Shown piece after piece: positions 18,370 to 35,651 of a stretch of 36,295 bases of DNA (positions are counted from its first letter, which is position 1; every line of letters begins with the position of its first letter). Both the position numbers and the translations under genes were made by a program. A model generated the notes under the pieces. The model made no database searches. It worked only from the letters and a program-made list of their open reading frames with translations, and had not been told where the DNA came from. This DNA is from Candidatus Nitrosopumilus sp. (GTDB lineage Archaea > Thermoproteota > Nitrososphaeria > Nitrososphaerales > Nitrosopumilaceae), in NCBI GenBank assembly GCA_018263505.1, contig JAANXA010000035.1:1-36295 (forward strand), given 5' to 3'.

Positions 18370-19467
18370 GTGTTAGAGCAACTAGTTGGGGATTCTAAGG
18401 CACTAGATCGTGCATTGGCTGGAGAAGAATTATCCTATAATGATGGACTGGAATTGATGAATTATGATAATTTGCATTTACTTGGAGCAGTAGCTGATAA
18501 TACTAGAAAAAAACTAGTTGGGGATACTGTTTCTTTTGCGGCATCATATTACATGAATTACACGAATGTTTGTGCTGCTAGTTGTCAAATGTGTGCCTTT
18601 TACCGAAAAGGTGATGAAGATGATGCATATACTCTAACCCCTCAAGAAATTGAACAACGCGTTGGGATTGCAAAACAAATGGGTGCAACTGAAGTTCATA
18701 TTGTAGGTGGGTTTCATCCAAAATTACCTTTAGAATATTATGAAGATATGATGAAGACTATCAAAAAAAGTCATCCTACACTTAACATTAAAGCATTAAC
18801 TGCAGCTGAAATTTTCTTTTTATCTAAACTAACAAAAAATTCTACAAAAGAAATTCTTTCACGTTTAAAAGATGCAGGACTTGATTCGATGCCTGGAGGC
18901 GGAGCTGAACTATTTCATCCGGATATTCGAAATAAAATTGTTAGAGGAAAATGTTCTGGTCAAGAATGGATTAATGTAATTGAAGAGGCACATAATATGG
19001 GAATTAAAAGTAATGTTACAATGCTGTATGGTCATATTGAAAAACCCGAACACATTATTGATCATTTGATAAAAATCCGTGATTTACAAAAGAAAACAAA
19101 TGGTCTTTTAACCTTGATTCCTTTGAAATTTAGTTTAGATAACACTGAACTAGAACAAAATAATTTGGTAACTCATGAATGTTCATCTGTTTATGATTTG
19201 AAAATTATTGCATTATCTAGATTGATGCTTGCAGGTGTTTTGAATAATATTTCTGTTTATTGGGTAGCCCTTGGTAAAAAATTAGCACAAGTTGCATTGT
19301 CTAATGGCGGAAATGATCTAGTAGGAACTGCATTTTCTGAAGAAATTTATCGTGCTGCTGGAAAACATACTGCTTCATCTGTTGATGATCTGGCAACGAT
19401 GGTAAAAGAAATTGGACGAAATCCTGCTCAACGAAATACTCATTTTGATATTTTAAACAAATTCTAG
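18370..19467 (+). CDS. mqnE: Aminofutalosine synthase MqnE (radical SAM)
   Basis: 365 residues. The radical-SAM cluster motif is Cys68-x3-Cys72-x2-Cys75, in the family context NYTNVCAASCQMCAFYR. VHIVGGFHPKLPLEYYEDMM, IKALTAAEIFFLSKL, GLDSMPGGGAELF and TMLYGHIEKPEH follow in the order found in MqnE. The ALTAAEI and PGGGAE segments separate it from MqnC and CofH. MqnE adds a SAM-derived adenosyl radical to 3-(1-carboxyvinyloxy)benzoate, giving aminofutalosine for menaquinone. The start is GTG with a TATA box at 18339. The mqnD gene lies about 1 kb downstream in the opposite orientation. Confidence 0.92.
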   Translation: MLEQLVGDSKALDRALAGEELSYNDGLELMNYDNLHLLGAVADNTRKKLVGDTVSFAASYYMNYTNVCAASCQMCAFYRKGDEDDAYTLTPQEIEQRVGIAKQMGATEVHIVGGFHPKLPLEYYEDMMKTIKKSHPTLNIKALTAAEIFFLSKLTKNSTKEILSRLKDAGLDSMPGGGAELFHPDIRNKIVRGKCSGQEWINVIEEAHNMGIKSNVTMLYGHIEKPEHIIDHLIKIRDLQKKTNGLLTLIPLKFSLDNTELEQNNLVTHECSSVYDLKIIALSRLMLAGVLNNISVYWVALGKKLAQVALSNGGNDLVGTAFSEEIYRAAGKHTASSVDDLATMVKEIGRNPAQRNTHFDILNKF

Positions 19468-19769
19468 TCTAACTGTTTTTTAATTGAATTTATTTTATCT
19501 TCCATTCTTACTTGTTTGTCTCTTCTTGAATCAATTTTGATGATTACTTCTACTCTGTTGATTCCTAAATTGTGTACAGTTTCCATCATTTTTTTTGATG
19601 CTTCATTAATTACATCTATGTTATCTGATTCTAAAACGGTCCCCATGGAATTTATTTCATATCTGAGATTCTCCAAATTTTTGATTGAGTCTATGGCTTT
19701 TGCTATGTAAAAACTAGCACTGGTGGTTTTAGTTGCCATTGGATACACGCTAATTTCTGCCTGAATCAT
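19464..19769 (-). CDS. MTH1187/UPF0045 thiamine-binding-family protein
   Basis: 101 residues. The signature is the first strand IQAEISVYPMATKTTSASFYI, then INSMGTVLESDN and a helix VINEASKKMMETVHNLGINRVEVIIKIDSRRD. This is the ferredoxin-like fold of the MTH1187/YkoF-type group (UPF0045), reported to bind thiamine or its pyrimidine moiety. Usual length is about 100 residues. It is convergent with mqnE, overlapping its end by 4 bases. Upstream on the same strand are a membrane miniprotein and then mqnD. Confidence 0.88.
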   Translation of the reverse strand: MIQAEISVYPMATKTTSASFYIAKAIDSIKNLENLRYEINSMGTVLESDNIDVINEASKKMMETVHNLGINRVEVIIKIDSRRDKQVRMEDKINSIKKQLD

Positions 19770-19805
19770 GTTTTTTAATTATAATTTTAGATTAAAAACT
19801 TTGAA

Positions 19806-20084
19806 TCACTTTATTGGCTTTTTCTCTTGTTTTTTAGGACTGCTTTTCTTTCGTCGTGTACCAAAACTGATTAAAATCAACAAAAATCCCAAACCCATCA
19901 AAATTCCGGAAAGAGTGTTGAGATCCTGATTTTCTTGTTGTGCAATCATTAAATCGATTGTTTCTTCTTCAGACATTCCTGAGTGCCCTGCAGGAGTTGA
20001 TGCATTCACATTAACACTTACTATAACGCCTATTACTAACAATGTAATTCCTAATGATAACATTCTCTTATCTACAAGAACCAT
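19806..20084 (-). CDS. Small two-helix membrane protein
   Basis: 92 residues. An N-terminal hydrophobic helix (about 9-28), either a signal peptide ending near VNAS or a membrane anchor, is followed by an acidic extracytoplasmic segment (SEEETIDLMIAQQENQD). A second helix at about 56-75 leads to a very basic tail (RRKKSSPKKQEKKPIK). The positive-inside rule puts the tail in the cytoplasm. No family recognised. Confidence 0.7.
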   Translation of the reverse strand: MVLVDKRMLSLGITLLVIGVIVSVNVNASTPAGHSGMSEEETIDLMIAQQENQDLNTLSGILMGLGFLLILISFGTRRKKSSPKKQEKKPIK

Positions 20085-26660: not shown

Positions 26661-28166
26661 ATGAAAGTAATGTCTGAGCTAGAACGTATATCTTTGACTC
26701 AAATGATTGAAAAAATCAATGAATTAATTGATTCTGGAAATGGCGATGCTGGAAGATTATATCATATTCTGGAATTTCTGAAAAATAAAAAACCCTTATA
26801 CCACTCTGATCAGATTTATCTTGAATCCAAATTAAATTCTTCATTTGAAATTAATGAAACTAATGAAGATGAAAATGATTTTCTTCCTCAAATTAAAAAA
26901 CTAATTGAAACTGGGCAAGGTGATCCTGGACGTCTACAGCATATCAGTGATATGATTTCTGATAACAAACCATTGTACAATTCTGATATTCAATATTTGC
27001 AATCAAAACTTTCTCCAAATCTTAATGTTGCAAAAATTGTTGCTTCTCATGTATCTTCAAAACCTGAAAACATTACATCGACTAAAATAAAATTAGAAAC
27101 TAAATCAAAAACTATTTCTGTAGATCCTCCTAAAACAACTGAAAAAATTGTAACTCGTGGTACGATGCCAAAGGGTTGGACCTCTCAAAATGTTTCAAAT
27201 GAAATAAATGAAATTTATGAAAAAATCGAAAATGAAAAAGAAAAAATTCATGAGCAAGAAAAAACTTCAAACGAATTGAATTCTAATAGGTTGAAACTAT
27301 CTGAACTTGTAACTCATAGAAAAGAATATGAACAAAAAGTCACTCAAGAAAAAAATTCTCTAGAATCTCAAATTAAAAATGAACGATTAAACATAGAAAC
27401 ACAAACAAAATTATCTCGTGATATTTTGTTACAGAAAGAAGAACTTGAAAAAGTTAAAAAAGCAAGAACAAATGTCATCAAGAAAATTAATTCTGAAAAA
27501 TCAAAAATATCTACTGATTTGTTACAACAAAAAAAGCAACTTGTATCTGCTCAATTAGAGCAAGAAGAAATTGAAAAGCAAATTGAACGTGAACAAATTT
27601 TGTTGGCAAAAATGACTGAGGAACAAAAATCTCAACTTACAAACCAATCAAAAATTGCTGCTGAGATTAAAGTCAAAAAAGCAGAATTAGAAAAAACAAA
27701 TCATGACTATGAACTAATTGTATCTCACATTAAAGAAGAACAAGAAAAACTTGAAGAATCTAAAAAACTGAAATCTTTGATTAAATCTCAAGAACATGAA
27801 CTAATTAAAGCTAAAGAAGAAAGACTAGAACTAATCAATACCATTTCTGAAGAAAAATTGGCACTCTCTAAGTTGAATAAAGAGGAAAAAGAGAAACTAA
27901 AGCAACAAAATGAACTTATCAAGAAACTCAAAAAAGATGAAAAAGCATATGACTCTCTAAAAAAGAAACGTGAAAAAGTTGATCTTCAAATAAAATCAAA
28001 AAATGCAAAACTCAAAGAAAAACAACAAAAATTAAAAAAACAGATAGATGACAAAAATAAGAAACTGAAATCTATTGGAACTTCCACAAAAAAATCCACA
28101 AAAAAATCCACAAAAAAATCCACAAAAAAATCCACAAAAAAATCCACAAAAAAATCCACAAAATAA
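26661..28166 (+). CDS. Coiled-coil protein with duplicated module and STKK tail
   Basis: 501 residues. Two copies of an about 42-residue module come first (16-58 and 76-117), sharing the pattern LI-x-S/T-G-x-GD-x-GRL-x-HI and KPLY-x-SD-x-x-YL-x-SKL. Then come a Ser/Thr-rich linker, a long Lys/Glu/Gln coiled coil (about 185-470) and a C-terminal tail of seven STKK units (475-501, the last one STK). The tail resembles the Lys-rich arms of histone H1-like DNA-binding proteins. There is no ATPase motif. The module is not one I can name. A role in DNA or membrane tethering is inference. Confidence 0.82.
   Translation: MKVMSELERISLTQMIEKINELIDSGNGDAGRLYHILEFLKNKKPLYHSDQIYLESKLNSSFEINETNEDENDFLPQIKKLIETGQGDPGRLQHISDMISDNKPLYNSDIQYLQSKLSPNLNVAKIVASHVSSKPENITSTKIKLETKSKTISVDPPKTTEKIVTRGTMPKGWTSQNVSNEINEIYEKIENEKEKIHEQEKTSNELNSNRLKLSELVTHRKEYEQKVTQEKNSLESQIKNERLNIETQTKLSRDILLQKEELEKVKKARTNVIKKINSEKSKISTDLLQQKKQLVSAQLEQEEIEKQIEREQILLAKMTEEQKSQLTNQSKIAAEIKVKKAELEKTNHDYELIVSHIKEEQEKLEESKKLKSLIKSQEHELIKAKEERLELINTISEEKLALSKLNKEEKEKLKQQNELIKKLKKDEKAYDSLKKKREKVDLQIKSKNAKLKEKQQKLKKQIDDKNKKLKSIGTSTKKSTKKSTKKSTKKSTKKSTKKSTK
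28083..28166 (+). repeat. Seven 12-bp repeats encoding STKK
   Basis: TCCACAAAAAAA repeats exactly in register six times from 28083, and a seventh copy ends in the stop codon. Each unit is four codons (Ser-Thr-Lys-Lys), so copy-number change keeps the frame. The 7-base A runs also make it prone to frameshift. Confidence 0.95.
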
Positions 28167-34911: not shown

Positions 34912-35157
34912 ATGACAAATTTTGAAAAACTCTATTTGCGTGTTGCATTACAAGTAATTGAGAGATGTCATGGAGCAATCAAAATAACAAAACATGGAAA
35001 AATCCTTGAAGTCTATGATACTAAACGACATATGTGGAGTAAAGGTTTAGCAGGATTGATAATCAAAGAAGAATGCAAAGAAGCAAATCTTAGAGATTGG
35101 GAGATTGCAAATGTTCGAAGTATTGTAATAAAAGAACTGCTTGAAAAATCAAACTAA
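34912..35157 (+). CDS. Small protein, unknown (81 aa)
   Basis: 81 residues: MTNFEKLYLRVALQVIERCH, a strand GAIKITKHGKILEVYDTKR, then HMWSKGLAGLIIKEECKEAN and a C-terminal helix IANVRSIVIKELLEKSN. Alpha/beta, soluble, no recognised family. A TGGTATATTATTAT element lies about 60 bases upstream. The structured-RNA candidate begins 59 bases after its stop on the same strand, so it could be its 3' UTR or an independent RNA. Confidence 0.68.
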   Translation: MTNFEKLYLRVALQVIERCHGAIKITKHGKILEVYDTKRHMWSKGLAGLIIKEECKEANLRDWEIANVRSIVIKELLEKSN

Positions 35158-35215
35158 TTATGATTAAAAACTTTGAAAAAATCAACTAGTTTTTACATCC
35201 CTACACTGTTAATTT

Positions 35216-35330
35216 ATTGCGTGATTCCAAAAATCGCGATTACCAAATCGGGTAATCAAAACGCAATTATGAAGAACGGAATCTCTCTATTCTTCATGGA
35301 TTGAAAGGACCTCTTCAGTTCTTTCAATCC
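35216..35330 (+). ncRNA. Candidate structured RNA with abutting helices
   Basis: Four perfect stems pack this gap. Helix 1 pairs 35216-35222 (ATTGCGT) with 35261-35267, and encloses 35238-35244 (GATTACC) paired with 35251-35257. Helix 2 pairs 35269-35276 (ATGAAGAA) with 35290-35297. Helix 3 pairs 35298-35307 (GGATTGAAAG) with 35321-35330 and can add three more pairs inside. The helices abut almost without spacers, as in stacked RNA junctions. A C plus T-rich run follows. Strand is not certain because all pairs are Watson-Crick; plus is assumed. Not recognised as 5S, tRNA, SRP or RNase P RNA. Confidence 0.55.
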
Positions 35331-35366
35331 ACTTTTAATTTGAACAATACTCTTGGTTCTCTCTAC

Positions 35367-35627
35367 TTAATATCCTAATTTTCTGATCAAATGAGGTTCT
35401 TTTAGCATGATCATATCATCTTTAATTGCTGATAATTCTACTTCTTTGAGATTATTATTAGTAATTACAATTAGTGCTTCACAACGATTACACAAAATTG
35501 TCTTCCCACTTGTTCGCTCTTCTCTAATGATGTCTGTTTCTAATCTGTCCTCTTTTTGGCATGTGGGACATAGTCTAGGTTCTTTTTCTGTGGTGATTAT
35601 CTCTTTGATGAAGATTGTTTTTCCCAT
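35367..35627 (-). CDS. Small zinc-ribbon protein
   Basis: 86 residues from the ATG at 35627 (an in-frame TTG eight codons upstream is less likely). Cys20-x2-Cys23 (LCPTCQKED) and Cys46-x2-Cys49 (ILCNRCEAL) make a zinc ribbon with strands between and after them (LETDIIREERTS, IVITNNNLKEVEL). Ribbons of this kind serve in transcription, translation or RNA-binding factors. No specific family is recognised. The upstream strand IFIKEIITTEKEP leads into the ribbon. Confidence 0.75.
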   Translation of the reverse strand: MGKTIFIKEIITTEKEPRLCPTCQKEDRLETDIIREERTSGKTILCNRCEALIVITNNNLKEVELSAIKDDMIMLKEPHLIRKLGY

Positions 35628-35651
35628 GATGATGAATAAGAATCTGGTCAA

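Follow-up and report, generated by a model that had tools for sequence, protein, structure and literature searches.

Locus and predicted transcription unit

The window, that is, the whole 36,295-nucleotide stretch of Candidatus Nitrosopumilus DNA that was analysed, carries a structured small RNA gene between two convergent protein genes. The RNA begins 58 bp past the stop codon of the same-strand 81-aa gene. The features of the locus, and of a related site elsewhere in the window, are as follows.

34912-35157, + strand: upstream 81-aa gene, outside the RNA gene; in 76/95 genomes, and far from the RNA in relatives
35158-35365, no strand: filled site; ~200 bp that relatives lack between this convergent gene pair (coding ends compared)
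35184-35199, + strand: promoter-like block, AT-rich, with TATA-like TTTTTAC (second sequence group: TTTTATAC), ~26 bases ahead of the RNA
35216-35337, + strand: structured small RNA gene with a predicted transcript of ~120 nt, recognised by fold z, covariation and homologues in 38/95 genus genomes
35217-35266, + strand: domain 1, with closing stem P1 (35217-35221/35262-35266); G-C to A-U double change in 14/39 rows; outer pair weak
35223-35235, + strand: mini-hairpin GAUU/AAUC of 4 pairs inside P1; near-invariant block (UGAUUCCAAAAAUCGCG)
35238-35257, + strand: hairpin 1b, 7 pairs, 5 of them with double changes
35269-35297, + strand: hairpin 2, 8 pairs; conserved inner loop CGGA..UCUCC and compensated arm changes
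35298-35330, + strand: hairpin 3, 13 pairs (outer 10 Watson-Crick), loop CUCUUCA; 4 pairs with double changes, many G-U exchanges
35333-35342, + strand: T-rich 3' end (TTTTAATTTG), a T-run in most homologues; probable termination site
35367-35651, - strand: downstream convergent gene, 94 aa, with a weak zinc-finger match, outside the RNA gene
19770-19805, - strand: empty counterpart of the RNA site of the second sequence group, 36 bp separating a 92-aa gene from a 101-aa gene

The extent of the unit was read from an identity profile of 17 homologues taken from different genomic contexts, a few of which share a neighbourhood. Mean pairwise identity was ~0.3 up to 35170, 0.60 at 35180-35189 and 0.85 at 35190-35199; it then fell to 0.54 across the spacer (35200-35209), was 0.76-1.00 from 35210 to 35339 and was ~0.35 after 35350. 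Past ~35340 conservation drops to background, and the fall is sharp at both ends of the unit. The two sequence groups differ in the promoter-like block, one having TTTTTACATC and the other TTTTATACATC. A distance of ~26 bases from the TATA-like element to 35216-35220 is the usual archaeal spacing, and the predicted transcript start was placed by this spacing, the predicted end by the T-run. Block, variable spacer, RNA and T-run together describe what, judged from the sequence, we infer to be a complete small transcription unit. RNA polymerase would start near 35216 and stop in the T-run at 35333-35342, and hairpin 3, which together with the T-run resembles a terminator, would protect the 3' end of the RNA. 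A free-standing sRNA gene is expected to bring its own promoter, and the sequence evidence here is a block at 0.85 identity versus flanks at 0.3.

Fold and covariation of the RNA

The minimum free energy of 35216-35330 was -42.6 kcal/mol, versus -21.2 +/- 3.3 kcal/mol in dinucleotide shuffles (z -6.48; 0/200 shuffles), in agreement with the original prediction, which had called chance a poor explanation for the stems. Folding of the reverse strand of the same segment was less marked (z -4.1). The RNA consists of three domains, 35216-35267, 35269-35297 and 35298-35330, separated by one base and then by none. The layout of perfect stems in abutting helices that had been described earlier was thus found in the sequence, except that the 5' pairing of domain 1 had to be corrected: the second sequence group does not retain the longer local 5' pairing that energy alone would favour (G35221-C35237, U35222-G35236), and P1 is the conserved closing stem. 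Conserved unpaired stretches are CCAAA at 35227-35231, the apical loop of hairpin 2 around 35281-35285 (the apical part of the hairpin being CGGA..CUCUCC) and CUCUUCA at 35311-35317.

A search for compensatory changes, proposed with the original prediction, was run on 39 homologues. Pairing was kept in 97.1% of pair cells, a figure biased in favour of the structure, which was drawn from the window and the consensus. Double-sided changes were found in 14/38 pairs, in a total of 72 cells, among alignment rows that are related, so that a single event may count several times. None of 500 shuffles reached any of five covariation measures, and the covariation counts collapsed when partners were slid by 1-3 columns. 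Compensatory changes are present in four of the five helices; the fifth, the mini-hairpin at 35223-35235, never varies, and covariation therefore cannot probe its pairing. In hairpin 1b, GAUUACC/GGUAAUC is replaced by GUUAACC/GGUUAAC and also by GUUAGU../..ACUAAC. In hairpin 2, UGAAGA/UCUUCA becomes UGUAGA/UCUACA (L072, L080) and UAUAGA/UCUAUA (L079), every change being compensated. Three or more distinct types of pair take part in the double changes of these two hairpins. Where only one side has changed, the outcome is mostly a G-U exchange when read on the + strand (e.g., GU:21/AU:18); on the other strand it would be an A-C mismatch. Because the G-U exchanges fit the + strand only, the + strand is the RNA. 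In sum, the RNA keeps a four-helix fold under selection, together with an invariant mini-hairpin.

The proposed switch and the small reading frame

One rival reading makes the RNA a cis-acting leader, either a riboswitch or an attenuator, that has a pseudoknot switch and stands orphaned in the window; an attenuator-like leader and a possible switch had been raised in the original prediction. The observation behind the switch is sound: TCTTCA, the 3' arm of helix 2 at 35291-35296, is repeated in loop 3 at 35312-35317, and both copies are able to pair with 35270-35275. The alternative pairing, however, showed no double changes, and all six of its pairs cannot form in 17/39 homologues, the blocking variants being TATTCA, TTTCA and TTTA in the loop and TGTAGA and TATAGA in the arm. 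In the homologue alignment the alternative was 89.7% paired, versus 90.0% after shuffling. When constrained refolding forced 35270-35275 to pair with 35312-35317, the energy was -25.4 instead of -42.2 kcal/mol, a cost of ~17 kcal/mol. Covariation joins the 5' arm of helix 2 to the 3' arm of that helix and not to loop 3. Nor is there a constant gene downstream of the RNA for an attenuator-like leader to control. The switch is rejected on these grounds, and we give the cis-acting leader almost no credence.

The tiny frame MKNGISLFFMD* is present in the window, as had been described, but neither its start nor its length is conserved. In relatives its ATG gives way to TTG, CTG, GTG or ATA, and insertions or deletions of 1-2 bases in the loop put the sequence out of frame; the 11-codon frame was rejected as a gene.

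Distribution among genomes

A DNA search found the RNA in 32/95 genomes of the genus, and the covariance model found it in 38/95, 37 of them strongly. It is usually single copy, and the source genome holds one copy. Among 250 genomes of the family the covariance model gave no convincing match in other genera, and a second model run over 400 genomes of the order added just two weak matches, neither convincing. Of these two, G162 overlaps an apparent coding sequence and was rejected, and G144 is weak. Two weak model matches, G033:C20:74985-75148 (L078) and one on G083:C30 (L077), may be divergent or decayed copies of the RNA. Several closed, single-contig genomes of the genus are without the RNA, and because these closed Nitrosopumilus genomes lack it, the RNA is patchy and dispensable.

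A pattern scan of named genomes matched mostly Nitrosopumilus MAGs and SAGs, and the window is for this reason taken to be Nitrosopumilus-like. A pattern match in a contig named "bacterium" sits inside bacterial genes and was set aside as chance (follow-up of L104 and L101). In the same follow-up, a contig filed under Phycisphaerae was seen to bear archaeal genes and is probably from a misbinned MAG. Phages, plasmids and viral contigs were searched without an RNA match, and a viral, phage or plasmid origin was rejected for lack of a match in such records.

Genomic contexts and relocation

The window neighbours of the RNA are not its neighbours elsewhere. The comparison covered relatives in which the two flanking genes adjoin each other. 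In six of these (G035, G056, G053, G030, G072 and G076) only 3-9 bp separate the coding ends of the two genes, versus ~215 bp in the window. In G001 ~157 bp lie between them, without the RNA. In the close relative G088 (L034) the gap is ~316 bp, also without the RNA; the gene pair there holds an unrelated insert of ~310 bp, and the site is a possible insertion hotspot. The second sequence group provides the converse case. There the RNA is flanked by genes for 92 aa and 101 aa, ~213 bp apart in L080 and others, and the window counterparts of these genes (19806-20084 and 19464-19769, minus strand) enclose the empty site listed above. Many further contexts were found, in which the upstream genes vary and are often divergent and the downstream genes vary in identity and orientation; at one locus (L094/L095) the same genes accompany the RNA in opposite orientations. 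Some of these contexts come from short MAG contigs, in which single misassemblies are possible; both empty-site comparisons span several genomes each. The unit, made up of promoter-like block, RNA and T-run, occupies many different chromosomal sites.

These contexts bear on the idea that the RNA belongs, as a 3' UTR element or terminator, to the 34912 gene or to any other gene upstream of it. The position of the RNA just past a same-strand stop codon, and its ending in a hairpin and T-run, fit such an element. Against this, the 81-aa gene and the RNA do not adjoin in the carriers compared: they are at 1,424,810 and 1,481,138, respectively, in G036, and are ~16 kb apart in G018, G081 and G085. 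Upstream genes change from one context to the next, and the unit has a conserved promoter-like block of its own. The assignment to the 34912 gene, suggested earlier, therefore fails, and a 3' UTR element of any kind is highly improbable. Since the window neighbours differ elsewhere and the unit brings its own promoter-like block, a free-standing gene is preferred to both a 3' UTR element and an attenuator.

At two different loci (L073 and L089) the RNA and a divergent gene for a 111-aa membrane protein make up a shared unit of ~505 bp at 84% identity, spanning -441..+63 relative to hairpin 2. Linkage to this gene was considered and rejected, as it is lineage-specific only; a distant homologue of the gene is on another contig of the source genome.

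The many sites, the two orientations and the size-matched empty sites would also be expected of a small mobile DNA element, non-autonomous and of MITE-like or palindrome type, whose hairpins would serve transposition as DNA and whose RNA fold would be a by-product. Two copies in different contexts of one assembly (L092/L108) share ~270 bp at 97%, which likewise favours such an element. As a rule, however, there is one copy per genome. When the flanks were compared for terminal inverted or direct repeats, the longest matches equalled the shuffled expectation, and no direct repeat above chance marked a target-site duplication in flanks whose exact junctions are not fixed. The stretches shared between contexts end variably (-98..+172, -145..+74 and -441..+63 relative to 35270), so that the ends of the unit depend on context. 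The promoter-like block, the variable spacer and the one-strand G-U exchanges, moreover, point to selection at the RNA level. We regard a mobile DNA element as unlikely. A further idea, put forward tentatively and doubtful though possible, is that of a relocating gene that is RNA only: a single-copy unit would move between Nitrosopumilus intergenic sites in either orientation, promoter included, with neither terminal repeats nor an encoded mobility protein, perhaps by recombination using its own hairpins or a trans-acting protein.

Other sequences were noticed during this work. A 103-bp single-copy intergenic sequence (TTGTTAATTGGTATCAGC...ACCAATTAACA) lies on another contig of the source genome (G000:C20:369-472) and is also found in L034, L033 and L036, downstream of the 81-aa gene region. 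It is 96-100% identical in all six genomes checked, folds with z -5.25 and has no Rfam match; it is a candidate for a second RNA or for another kind of conserved element. In the window itself, a coiled-coil-like protein of 501 aa has a tandem KKST repeat at its end (28085-28166).

Known RNA families

Rfam 15 gave no match in the window at curated thresholds, and the matches at permissive settings were chance-level and unrelated; nine related loci gave none either. By this check, which the original prediction had proposed, the RNA belongs to no Rfam family. Its description as an unassigned structured RNA is upheld by the compensatory changes and by the lack of an Rfam match, and the suggestion that it could be a small RNA gains further from the conserved promoter-like block.

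An unusual form of guide RNA for RNA modification, of the C/D or H/ACA type, was also considered. Such RNAs are similar in size, and archaeal guide RNAs are often free-standing, which counts in favour. Yet 35216-35337 contains neither box C (UGAUGA) nor box D (CUGA), and it contains no ACA, so that the ACA box that follows the hairpin in H/ACA RNAs is absent; matches to snoRNA models were sub-threshold and unrelated. A guide RNA is thus very unlikely. There is no tRNA in the window. A literature search, covering papers outside subscription, returned no description of this RNA and no Nitrosopumilus small RNA.

Interpretation and comparison with known systems

The locus probably holds a free-standing small RNA gene, present in a subset of Nitrosopumilus, whose RNA acts in trans. 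The trans-acting role is probably the simplest reading, given that the RNA has no constant neighbour and has its own promoter-like block. Contact with targets elsewhere would be made by the conserved unpaired loops of the RNA, by a protein that it binds, or by both. Sites complementary to loop 3 were sought ahead of 24 window genes, a small sample, as Shine-Dalgarno pairing, and none gave support.

Ammonia-oxidising archaea rank with the most abundant microbes of the sea. A well-delimited RNA family whose fold is backed by covariation and whose start is predicted offers a direct way into experiments on expression and targets. The repeated joint relocation of promoter and RNA is relevant to the movement and loss of small RNA genes.

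Among published RNAs, the closest parallel that turned up is Tan1 (Thalassoarchaea ncRNA 1), a 229-nt ncRNA of marine group II Euryarchaeota that came from metatranscriptome expression data (PMC5069720). It is likewise a structured, lineage-restricted marine archaeal ncRNA without known function; the likeness is one of description, and Tan1 differs in its host group, its length and in being known from expression (PMC5069720). The Nitrosopumilus RNA is a real, uncatalogued, lineage-restricted small RNA family; the family is new, its kind is already known, and only the relocation could exceed that. Miniature non-autonomous transposable elements resemble it in being short, non-coding, hairpin-rich and found at different sites in related genomes, but the Nitrosopumilus RNA is single copy, has no detected terminal repeats and bears a one-strand RNA signature. 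With regulatory sRNA genes that stand alone in bacteria and archaea it shares a promoter-like sequence of its own, several hairpins, a T-run after the last of them and conserved unpaired loops; compared with such genes generally, it has no known target or partner and changes position unusually often between species.
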